Assembly: GCA_022750155.1 (NCBI GenBank)
Contig: JAKIWG010000019.1
Coordinates: 1 to 41,703, forward strand
DNA length: 41,703 nucleotides
Reading direction: 5' to 3'
From: Thermoplasmata archaeon
GTDB taxonomy: Archaea > Thermoplasmatota > Thermoplasmata > Lutacidiplasmatales > UBA184
The notes beneath the pieces are model-generated. The model saw only the letters and a program-made list of their open reading frames with translations. It did no database searches and was not told where the DNA came from. Shown one piece after another: positions 37,511 through 41,090 of the stretch. A program made the position numbers and the translations under genes. How positions within the stretch are numbered: position 1 is the first letter of the stretch; the number at the start of each line of letters is the position of its first letter.

Positions 37511-37593
37511 CCCGTTTTCGGCCCACCACGTCGGCCCTCCCAGGTCGCTCGACCCGCGAGGGTTTAAGGAACGGGAGGCGAGTGGGCGACACC

Positions 37594-40500
37594 GTGGAGG
37601 AGTACTTTCGGTCGCTCGAAGACGACGTCGGCCGGGCGTACGACGCCGCCGAACGGGCGCATCAGCAGGGGCTCGACCCGCAGCTTCACGTGGAGATCCC
37701 CCGGGCCCAGGACATGGCCATGCGGGTGGAGAAGCTCCTCCAGCACCTCCACATCGACGGCATCTCCACAACGATCCGGGATCTGTGCCGGACGATGCCT
37801 CGCGAGGAGGTCGCGCTCACGATCGCCCGGCAGCTCGCGCTGGACACGACGCGGGGCGGGACGCTGGAGGAGCGGCTCGACGCCGCTCTCCGCGTGGGCC
37901 TCGCCATCCTCACCGAGGGGATCCTCGTGGCCCCGCTGGAAGGGCTCGCGGAGGTCCACCTTCGTGAGGGCCGGCGCGGGGCCTACGTGGAACTGTACTA
38001 TGCCGGCCCGATCCGCGCGGCCGGAGGCACGGCCCAGGCCCTCTCGGTGCTGCTGGCGGACCTCGTGCGCCGGGACCTGGGGGTGGGCGCGTACCACCCC
38101 GACCCGGACGAGGTCGGGCGGTACCAGGAGGAGATCCCGCTCTACAAGCACCTGCAACACCTCCAGTATGTCCCTACCGCCGAGGAGATCGCGACCGTCA
38201 CGCGCCACGTTCCCGTCTGCATCTCCGGGGAGTCGACGGAAGGGGACGCCGAGGTCAGCGCATTCCGAAATCTATCGCGCGTCTCGACCAACGGGATCCG
38301 CGGGGGCGCGTGCCTCGTCATCGCCGAGGGGTTGTGCCAGAAGGCGGCGAAGCTTCGGAAGATCGTCGAGAAGCTCGGAGTCCCGGGCTGGGAGTTCCTC
38401 TCGACACTGGGTCGCCAGAAATCCCCGGATTCCGAAGGAGGGCACGGTCCGAAGTACCTCGATGAGGCACTGGGTGGCCGGCCGATCCTCGGCTACCCCC
38501 ACCGCGCCGGCGGGTTCCGGCTGACCTACGGCCGCGCCCGGACCGCCGGCCTTGCGGCGTGCGCGGTCAATCCGGCGACGATGGTCCTCCTGCGCCGGTT
38601 CGTCGCCGTCGGCACCCAGGTCAAGCTCGAGTTCCCCGGCAAGGCCACCGCGATGGGATTGTGCGATACCGTCGAAGGGCCGATCGTCGAGCTCTCCGAC
38701 GGCACGCTCGTCGCGGTCCATGACCCGCAGACCGCGGAAGCCCTCCTGCCGGAGGTCCAGCGCATCATCGACCTCGGGGCCCTGCTCGTGCCGTTCGGGG
38801 AGTTCCTCGAGAACAACCGAGCGCTCTCCCCCGGCGCGTACACCTTCGAGCGGCACATCGAGGAGCTGCGCGCCGCCGGGGTCCCGCCCGAGCTCTGGAG
38901 GACCTCGCCGAGCTACGAGGAGGCGATCGATACCAGTCGCCGGTGGGGAGTGCCGATGCATCCGAGGTTCCTCCTCTTCTGGCACGACCTCACGATCGAG
39001 GAGCTCTGCGAGCTCTCGGAATGGGTCCTCCGCGAGGGCCAGATGGGGGAGGGGAGTCTGGAACTACCCTGGTCGGTCGAACGCCGGGAGCTCCTGGTCC
39101 GCCTCGGGTTCCTCCACCGGCGCGGACCGCAGGGTCAGATCCGTAGCGACCCGCAGCTCGCGGCGCCGCTGCTCGGGGGGCTCGGCCTCCAGATCACGGA
39201 GGGCAGGATCGGCCGACGCGCTCCCCTCGACCCGACCGACGCTCCGGTGCTCGCGTTCGTCAGCCGGCTCGCGGGCGTTCCAGTGCCGGCCCGGGCGCCC
39301 ACCCGCGTCGGCGCCCGCGTGGGCCGCCCGGAGAAGGCGAGACAGCGGAAGATGAGCCCGAACGTGCACGTGCTCCTTCCCCTCGCGGAGGCGGGAGGCA
39401 GCCATCGGTCGATCGCCGAGGCCGTGCGCCGCGCCCCGCCCGAGGGGGTCCGCGTCCAGCTCGGCCATCGTCTGTGCCCGTCGTGCGGGAAAGGGTCGGC
39501 CTGGCTGCGGTGCTCGTGCGGAAGCCACACTCTCCCGACCGGGGAGGTGGTGACGGAGCCCCTGCCGATCGCCCAACTGTGGACCGATGCGCTGCGGCGG
39601 CTCCATCTGCGGACCGTCCCCGAGGTCAAGGGCGTCAAGGGGCTCACTTCCCCGGGGAAGGTCCCCGAGATGATCGAGAAGGGGATCCTCCGGGCCTCCC
39701 ACGGGATCTCGGTCTACCAGGACGGGACGGCACGGTTCGACCTGACCGACCTGCCCTTGACGCACTTCCGGCCCCGCGAGGTACAGCTCCCCCTCGACCG
39801 GGCCCGGGCCCTCGGGTACGACACGGACTGGACGGGGGCCGCGTTGACCGACCCGGAGCAGCTCGTGGAGCTCCGACCCCAGGACCTCGTGGTCTCGCGG
39901 TCGTGCGGCAAGTACCTATTGCACCTCGCCCAGTTCGTCGACGACGAACTGGTCCGCCTCTACAATCTCGAGCCGTTCTACCGCGCCGGCAAGATCGACG
40001 ACTTGCTGGGCGCGATCGTCGTAGCTTTGGCCCCGCACACCTCGGGGGGCGTCGCGGGACGGATCGTCGGCTTCACCGACGCCGAGGCGTGCTTCGCGCA
40101 TCCGGTGTTCCACGCGGCGAAGCGGCGCAACTGCGACGGGGATGAGGACTCGGTCACGCTCCTGATGGACGCGCTCGTCAACTTCTCGCGCTCGTACCTG
40201 CCGGAGAGCCGGGGCGCCCTCATGGACAAGCCGCTCGTGCTCACCACCCGGCTCAACGGGACCGAGGTCGACAAGGAGGCGCACAACCTCGATGTCGCCG
40301 CTCGATACCCCCTCGCCCTGTACCGGGCGGCCGATGAGGGACGCGCGGCGAAGGACGTGGAACCGCTGATCGAGACGCTCGGACGCCGGCTCGAGGGGCC
40401 CCACGCCCTTTCGGGCCTCGGCTTCACCCACGACACGACCGACATCGCCGGCGGCCCGGTCTACTCCGCGTACCGGGAGGCCGGGTCGATGGCGAGGATC

Positions 40501-40950
40501 GTCGAGCAGTCCCTGACGCTGACCGTTCAGATCCGGGCCGTCGATGTCGCCGACGCCGTGAGCCTGGTGCTCAACTCCCACTTCCTCCCGGACCTGATGG
40601 GGAACCTGAAGAGCTACGCCACGCAGAAGTTCCGGTGCAAGGTCTGCGGAGAATCGTTCCGACGACCGCCGCTCGTCGGCCGGTGCACCGTGGTGAAGGG
40701 CAAGGGCCAGTGCGACGGGGACCTCCTCCCGACGGTCTACGAGGGGGCCGTGCGAAAGTACCTGGGGCTCTCCCACCGGCTCGCCGAGACCGTGGGGGTC
40801 ACCCCGTACATCCGCCAGCGGATCTCGCTCCTCGAATCGTCGCTGGCCACGCTCTTCCCGGGCAGCCTCGCTCAGACGACGCTCGAAGCGTACGGGCGGG
40901 GGGCTCCGGTCCCGAGCGTGGCGGTGGCCCCGCGTCCCCCGACCGCCTGA
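37594..40950 (+). CDS. polC: DNA polymerase D large (catalytic) subunit DP2
   Basis: A 1118-residue DP2, the replicative polymerase subunit of Euryarchaeota and related lineages. The N-terminus [24 protein letters not shown] and [15 protein letters not shown] match the family start. Other marks: the [26 protein letters not shown] motif, a zinc ribbon CPSC...CSC, the catalytic core [26 protein letters not shown] with its invariant Asp pair, and a C-terminal zinc element CKVCGES...C...C. There is no intein although DP2 is a common intein host. GTG 37594 is chosen because the TATA-like GTTTAAG (37562-37568) is about 29 nt upstream; GTG 37582 with GGGAGG is an alternative. Confidence 0.97.
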   Translation: [1118 protein letters not shown]

Positions 40951-40989
40951 GGAACCCCCAAATAGGCCGTGCGGGGTGGAGCCCGTTGC

Positions 40990-41090
40990 GGGCTTGTAGG
41001 GTAGTCTGGACTATCCTTTTGGCCTTCGAAGCCAAAGACCGGGGTTCGAATCGTCCGGCGACGCCGGCCGCGAAATTCCCCGCAAGCCCG
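40990..41090 (+). tRNA. tRNA-Arg(UCG) with a T-loop intron
   Basis: A full cloverleaf appears once bases 41051-41076 are removed. The acceptor stem is GGGCTTG/CAAGCCC (40990-40996 with 41083-41089), discriminator G73. T8 and A9 follow; the D-arm has G18-G19 and A20 (an ArgRS identity base) with a T13-T22 mismatch common in archaeal tRNAs. The anticodon stem is TTGGC/GCCAA with loop CTTCGAA, anticodon TCG, reading CGA. T-stem CGGGG/CCCCG closes a spliced loop TTCGAAT. Mature length is 75 nt and CCA is not encoded. CCAAATAGG about 24 nt upstream is a likely TATA box. Gene finders that assume an uninterrupted T-loop could miss it. Confidence 0.88.
41051..41076 (+). other. 26-nt archaeal tRNA intron at position 59/60
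   Basis: The intron forms a textbook bulge-helix-bulge: exon helix CGGGG/CCCCG, central 4-bp helix TTCG (41045-41048) with CGAA (41071-41074), 3-nt bulges AAT (41049-41051) and ATT (41075-41077), and an inner helix with a 5-bp CCGGC/GCCGG stem and GAC loop. Cleavage after the second base of each bulge excises 41051-41076 and leaves a normal 7-nt T-loop. Confidence 0.85.

Follow-up and report, generated by a model that had tools for sequence, protein, structure and literature searches.

A probable bulge-helix-bulge intron in the T-loop of tRNA-Arg(UCG) of a Thermoplasmata archaeon, and introns at the same site in about a third of its detected tRNA genes

The window, by which we mean the whole 41,703-nt stretch of DNA analysed here, carries a tRNA-Arg(UCG) gene that is interrupted within the T-loop. 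Its acceptor stem forms 7 of 7 pairs (40990-40996 with 41083-41089) and is followed by a discriminator G at 41090; the T-stem pairs CGGGG (41040-41044) with CCCCG (41078-41082), and the anticodon is TCG. Removal of 41051-41076 leaves the T-loop TTCGAAT and restores a standard tRNA. Given that 41051 and 41077 are both T, the borders can be shifted by one base, and excision of 41052-41077 yields the identical mature RNA; we place the border at 41051-41076 on the strength of congeners with introns that start with A and end with C. An earlier note, made from the letters of this DNA, had proposed a 26-nt T-loop intron whose excision gives a complete tRNA. Sequence, fold and relatives bear this out, and the predicted spliced product agrees with intronless orthologues at the same locus.

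The interruption has the arrangement that defines an archaeal bulge-helix-bulge (BHB) motif, with two 3-nt bulges at the exon-intron borders and a 4-bp helix between them. The minimum free energy (MFE) fold of the precursor runs from the T-stem on the outside through a 3-nt 3' bulge, the TTCG/CGAA helix and a 3-nt 5' bulge to an inner hairpin (z -3.4; 0 of 200 shuffles folded equally well), in agreement with the motif at positions 59/60 that the earlier note had drawn. Cleavage of a BHB falls after the second base of each bulge; the cut sites expected from the geometry are listed in Table 1.

Table 1. Positions of the features discussed; rows with a strand lie in the window, the remaining rows in other contigs (C) or genomes (G).
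Feature	Position	Strand	Basis
DNA polymerase D large subunit (DP2, presumed), upstream neighbour	37582..40950	+	syntenic with tRNA in relatives
Promoter-like element, GAAC 40952-40955 and CAAATA 40959-40964, -38 to -26 from the tRNA	40952..40964	+	26 genus loci
tRNA-Arg(UCG) gene, interrupted	40990..41090	+	sequence, fold, ARAGORN, relatives
5' exon, to position 59	40990..41050	+	sequence, fold, ARAGORN, relatives
5' strand of BHB central helix, TTCG (T54-G57), paired to 41071-41074	41045..41048	+	fold, congeners
5' bulge AAT, putative cut 41050/41051	41049..41051	+	fold geometry
Intron, 26 nt, T-loop positions 59/60	41051..41076	+	sequence, fold, relatives
Inner intron hairpin, CG/CG then CCGGC/GCCGG, 3-nt loop	41052..41070	+	fold
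BHB central helix, 3' strand CGAA, intronic	41071..41074	+	fold, congeners
3' bulge ATT, putative cut 41076/41077	41075..41077	+	fold geometry
3' exon: T60, 3' strands of T-stem and acceptor stem, discriminator G; CCA not encoded	41077..41090	+	sequence, fold
tRNA-Lys(UUU) with D-loop intron	L083, C21:36741-36883		reading, fold
tRNA-Leu(UAG) with D-loop intron	L082, C26:127-271		reading, fold
tRNA-Arg(GCG) with D-loop intron	L081, C26:70532-70640		reading, fold
tRNA-Pro(UGG) with D-loop intron, irregular motif	L085, C26:95189-95296		reading, fold
Integrase genes adjoining tRNA-Gly(CCC), Met(CAU), Thr(CGU)	L321 (C43:27986), L327 and L328 (G029)		

Standard tools handle this gene poorly. ARAGORN calls a tRNA-Arg(UCG) but puts its 3' end at 41069, 21 bases early, and the Rfam tRNA model scores it at 21.9 bits against a cut-off of 29. 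Because such genes are misplaced or under-scored, the tRNA sets of genomes that carry them can appear incomplete. Our scanner, which demands 7 acceptor pairs, 5 T-stem pairs, an anticodon arm with at least 4 of 5 pairs and an intron of at most 60 nt, made a single T-loop-intron call on both strands of the window, the tRNA-Arg(UCG) gene. On 3 Mb of random sequence with the dinucleotide composition of the window it made two calls, and in one of these the central helix reached 3 pairs or more.

Just upstream lies a gene that we take to encode DP2, the name that the earlier note had also given it. Homologues occur in 58 of 61 genomes; the protein is 71% identical to that of Candidatus Lutacidiplasma silvani and 67% identical to that of UBA184 among Thermoplasmata MAGs, and the nearest, from a Euryarchaeota archaeon, is 86% identical. 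The organism accordingly falls within or close to the Lutacidiplasmatales. Between this gene and the tRNA stands a promoter-like element, in which we take GAAC to be BRE-like and CAAATA to be TATA-like. An AT box is found near -30 to -26 at all 26 genus loci (AAATA in 25, ATATA in one) and is preceded by GAAC in 18 of them; the leader is otherwise GC-rich and variable.

Thirty DP2 loci were retrieved, counting that of the window, and the tRNA carries the intron at 26 of them. Among these orthologues the mean identity is 0.957 for exons and 0.542 for introns, and intron length ranges from 23 to 34 nt. In 99.4% of 702 cells the bases expected to pair do so, compared with 33-55% in slid controls, for rows that the scanner had preselected on their acceptor and T-stem pairs and on four or more of the five anticodon pairs. 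Six of the 27 pairs have changed on both sides, two each in the anticodon stem, the T-stem and the first pairs of the inner helix.

When the window and 80 named DP2 loci are taken together, 53 have the intron, four have an intact tRNA at the corresponding position and no call was obtained for 24, the latter comprising 19 distant lineages and five loci that were cut or not found. The four empty sites (L162, L163, L167, L177) read TTCGAATCCCGG without interruption across the insertion point. A midpoint-rooted FastTree phylogeny of DP2 requires two changes of intron state over 57 labelled rows (the state of L165 was entered by hand and equals the scanner value). L162 looks like a loss; L163, L167 and L177 branch outside, where the intron may never have been present.

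We then have to ask how the gene stands within its own genome, a 2.13-Mb draft in 51 contigs that is 93.7% complete. The tRNA census combined 37 Rfam matches with seven more genes from a covariance model, R1, each with the stretches they indicate, giving 44 genes in total. R1 describes T-loop-intron pre-tRNAs with the inner-helix pairs omitted; it was built from a MAFFT alignment of different isoacceptors in which some anticodon arms are misplaced, and the pair counts of that alignment are excluded from the evidence since its rows were chosen for that pairing. Because R1 also matches intact tRNAs, loci were re-read with the scanner before an intron was called. The organism uses CGA codons (eight in the DP2 gene). 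The earlier note had suggested looking for another tRNA-Arg(UCG), and there is none among the 44 genes found in this draft; a second copy could lie within an assembly gap. Also unseen in this census are tRNAs for Trp, Ile(GAU) and Ile2.

An intron at 59/60 is present in 14 of the 44 tRNA genes, about a third: Ala GGC, Arg TCG, Arg TCT, Asn GTT, Asp GTC, Gln CTG, Glu CTC, Gly TCC, His GTG, Leu TAG, Lys TTT, Ser CGA, Ser GCT and Ser GGA. Contig edges cut off the 5' ends of Gln CTG, Ser GCT and Ser CGA, and the contig bearing tRNA-Ala(UGC) stops exactly at A59, so that this gene stands outside the count. As a separate observation, four of the 102 contig ends fall inside tRNA genes, above their share of the genome (the starts of C17, C25 and C26 and the end of C44; L032, L087, L035 and L086).

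Throughout the set, T54-T55-C56-R57 is opposed by intron bases near the 3' border, namely CGAA, CGAG, CGGA, GGAA, GGAG or TGAA, and CGGC in Lys. Scored in the 3-4-3 register that our script imposed, the one register considered, four standard central pairs are formed in 6 of the 14 (Arg UCG, Glu, Asn, Gly, Asp and Gln). Each of the six tRNAs with G57 has G-C as its fourth pair; of the eight with A57, seven show an A.G mismatch there and Glu shows A-U. The first pair in Lys(UUU) is a U-C mismatch. The strict motif described in the earlier note thus holds for the window gene but not everywhere in the genome, where half of the T-loop introns carry the A.G pair. Among five other pre-tRNAs that we folded, the central helix appears in the MFE structure for Glu and is absent for Asp, Asn, Arg(UCU) and the orthologue L160.

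We found no near-identical introns between tRNAs: the longest stretch that any two of the 14 T-loop introns have in common is 9 nt, a length reached in 173 of 300 shuffles. The mean shared stretch over intron pairs is slightly high (6.12 vs 5.38, attained in 0 of 300 shuffles), as a common intron 3' end would give. A copy-and-paste origin, as near-identical introns would suggest it, is not visible in these sequences.

Introns also occur at other positions. Reading and folding revealed D-loop introns in four tRNAs (Arg GCG, Pro TGG, Lys TTT and Leu TAG), so that Lys(UUU) and Leu(UAG) have two introns each, one in the D-loop and one in the T-loop. In tRNA-Lys, G000 and G029 have different bases in the D-loop helix, which seems paired in both. 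Three anticodon-loop introns were found by reading, in Tyr, Met and L026, the last of which is Ser according to ARAGORN and Leu UAA by reading. We also noted tRNA-Arg(CCU) twice on contig C3, 23 kb apart (L005 at C3:36923 and L015 at C3:59978); L015 has an acceptor-stem mismatch.

The T-loop introns recur among relatives. R1 matches all 37 genus genomes at E 1e-9 or better, with 3 to 12 matches each. Three congeners were read closely, and the isoacceptors interrupted in the T-loop are the same there, with 13 such introns in G029, 14 in G018 and 11 in the fetched part of the places in G001. A scanner call for Ala TGC in G018 was dropped, as it lies inside tRNA-Leu(UAG), and Gly(UCC) of G029, which is interrupted by eye and has no scanner call, was left out of the count. 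Across the 349 Thermoplasmata genomes at least 80% complete, 81 have a strong match (1e-11): 71 in the family of the window organism, including 47 in its genus, and ten elsewhere, one each; among these ten, loci were read in two, G038 and G040. Family labels were at hand for the listed genomes, a list that excludes 248 genomes with no match.

At 1e-8, R1 finds matches in 19 of 21 genomes selected from beyond the family. The scanner read 30 loci fetched from these as 17 T-loop introns, seven intact T-loops and six without a call, the 17 coming from 12 genomes in 10 families. T-loop introns thus appear to be spread thinly over the class Thermoplasmata and densely in the window organism's family. 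In the ten other families (L199-L225) the 59/60 introns lie in Arg (TCG, TCT, CCG), Lys (CTT, TTT), Pro GGG, Gly CCC and Ala CGC; several of these isoacceptors differ from those of the window organism's family, which hints at separate gains.

Splicing would depend on the endonuclease, whose type the earlier note had also proposed checking. EndA is the sole splicing endonuclease noted in the genome. Its single frame of 353 aa holds both the N- and the C-domain in two copies, and residues 71-335 align with the EndA of A. fulgidus. Its two tRNA_int_endo repeats lie in one protein; by eye, the active site is in the C-terminal repeat and absent from the N-terminal one. The catalytic unit aligns without gaps through the YGSxxG loop with the M. 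jannaschii and A. fulgidus enzymes, and 29 EndA sequences obtained from 30 loci in the class have a loop of this length with identical Y, H and K residues. We take YGSxxG to be the site of the specificity loop and the structure 3p1y to be a loop chimera; the match of EndA to 3p1y starts just behind YGSxxG, consistent with a loop placed there. None of the 29 sequences has a crenarchaeal- or ARMAN-specific loop at YGSxxG. PF01974 matches are present in 55 of 61 genomes surveyed, exactly two of them in 49 of the 55, and the genome also encodes the RtcB ligase. By sequence, then, EndA belongs to the fused homodimer (alpha-prime-2) class and lacks the loop tied to relaxed specificity, and the narrow-specificity endonuclease envisaged in the earlier note fits this class. 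Ferroplasma, presumably a relative within the Thermoplasmata, offers a comparison. Its homodimeric EndA is reported to cut minimal BHB substrates at 30 C, and homodimeric EndAs are reported to cut BHL-like motifs as well (PMC8707768); two further papers assign narrow specificity to alpha-prime-2 EndA (PMC12397907, PMC6379350).

Taken together, these data make it very probable that the window holds a genuine BHB intron at 59/60 in a working tRNA-Arg(UCG) gene, to be removed by EndA and joined by RtcB. Once transcribed, the precursor would use its T-stem as the outer helix, and T54-T55-C56-R57 would pair with four bases near the intron 3' end, CGAA here, to form the central helix. The two 3-nt bulges would then expose both cut sites to the homodimer-type EndA, and RtcB would join A59 to U60. 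The invariant T-loop sequence TTCRA would serve as a ready-made half of a BHB, to which the intron brings the other half. Given that the T-loop is near-identical in all tRNAs, an intron with the right 3' end would fit any of them, and one such intron type would account for 14 tRNAs interrupted at a single site.

The seven A.G fourth pairs and the U-C first pair of Lys are awkward for a strict enzyme. They raise the alternative that the introns are spliced but that EndA of this clade has been broadened by means other than the known loops, a reading that we consider unlikely although it retains some weight. The A.G pair in seven of eight A57 tRNAs favours it, as do D-loop introns that are in part less regular, such as that of Pro(UGG). 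Against it, the EndA sequence is that of an ordinary alpha-prime-2 enzyme with no insertion, and if homodimers cut BHL-like motifs, as stated in PMC8707768, broadening may be unnecessary.

The introns might instead be spliced and kept by selection because they break integrase attachment sites in the T-arm. Randau and Soll reportedly viewed tRNA introns as a shield against the integration of mobile elements. The shared isoacceptor set of four congeners would fit this, and we sought integrases in four genomes and scanned six of their nine places for tRNAs, leaving out L324-L326: three of the six neighbourhoods, in two genomes, hold a tRNA, and all three T-loops are intact. Yet three of three would be expected about once in three trials if two thirds of tRNAs are intact, and no repeat of a tRNA 3' end longer than 19 nt was found in stretches of 4 to 20 kb. 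The T stem-loop and 3' end are listed among attachment regions in PMC8371274, but thaumarchaeal elements are said there to use intron-bearing tRNA genes too. With two state changes over the DP2 tree, retention may be inertia, for now the simpler account, and we regard protection by the introns as rather improbable.

It is very improbable that the gene is a decayed or inactive copy with a 26-base insertion, CGA being read by another tRNA. Standard tools fail to call it properly and an incomplete genome leaves room for another copy, but the exons keep 95.7% identity across 26 loci and show paired changes, the upstream box is conserved, the 44 genes detected include no further tRNA-Arg(UCG) and 13 other tRNAs have a like insert.

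The preferred reading, a spliced BHB intron cut by a plain homodimer-type EndA, can be set beside known systems. Thermoproteales and other Crenarchaeota likewise have BHB introns off the anticodon loop, several per gene and in many tRNAs (Sugahara 2008 and Fujishima 2010, as cited in PMC8450103 and PMC4033280); the same two sources give them a heterotetrameric, broad EndA and similar introns common to several tRNAs. In contrast, site 59/60 dominates in our genome, EndA appears to be a fused, homodimer-type enzyme and different tRNAs have no near-identical introns in common. Asgard archaea also have many tRNA genes with non-canonical introns outside Crenarchaeota, but 92-95% of their tRNA genes are interrupted, over half with several introns, in the account of PMC11291895. 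Caldiarchaeum subterraneum, with introns in 13 of 45 tRNA genes, D-, V- and T-arm included, differs in its scattered positions and non-euryarchaeal lineage (PMC3293823). Korarchaeum cryptofilum combines a homodimeric (alpha2) EndA with non-canonical tRNA introns, but its EndA is described as having the crenarchaeal-type loop (PMC4033280), an insertion that is lacking at that site in the EndA studied here. The canonical 37/38 introns of Euryarchaeota share the motif, a homodimer or homotetramer EndA and RtcB. Intron-bearing euryarchaeal tRNA genes (<10%) are said to have one intron at the canonical position (PMC4090602), unlike the T-loop set found here.

Many non-canonical introns outside Crenarchaeota were thus known before, from Asgard archaea and Caldiarchaeum, and T-arm introns from other archaea. 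Two reviews associate introns that lie outside the anticodon loop with endonucleases of broad specificity (PMC4033280, PMC4090602), and one names Korarchaeum as the only archaeon with an alpha2 EndA and non-canonical introns (PMC4033280). A large conserved set of T-loop introns beside what appears to be an alpha-prime-2 EndA contradicts these statements. Our literature searches found no paper on T-loop introns in Thermoplasmatota, and a database or a table may have noted them before. The source habitats given for the Lutacidiplasmatales are pine forest, grassland and peaty soils; the study called tRNAs with tRNAscan-SE, and a search of its text gives no occurrence of the word "intron" (PMC9287336).

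A wider reading, which we offer as a tentative and rather doubtful one, is that Thermoplasmata have undergone a further radiation of non-canonical introns with no change of endonuclease class, TTCRA acting as a half-BHB that would let introns with a suitable 3' end colonise any tRNA at 59/60 under a narrow enzyme. The set of about 14 isoacceptors would then have been held since the genus ancestor for its usefulness, either in shielding attachment sites or in serving as a checkpoint of T-arm maturation.

For the annotation of Thermoplasmata genomes, the tool errors seen here affect tRNAs with T-loop introns. With T-loop introns in roughly one third of the detected tRNA genes beside a plain homodimer-type EndA, the rule that ties introns outside the anticodon loop to broad enzymes becomes testable in vitro with few substrates, and the presence/absence pairs at the DP2 locus are a natural system for the gain and loss of introns.
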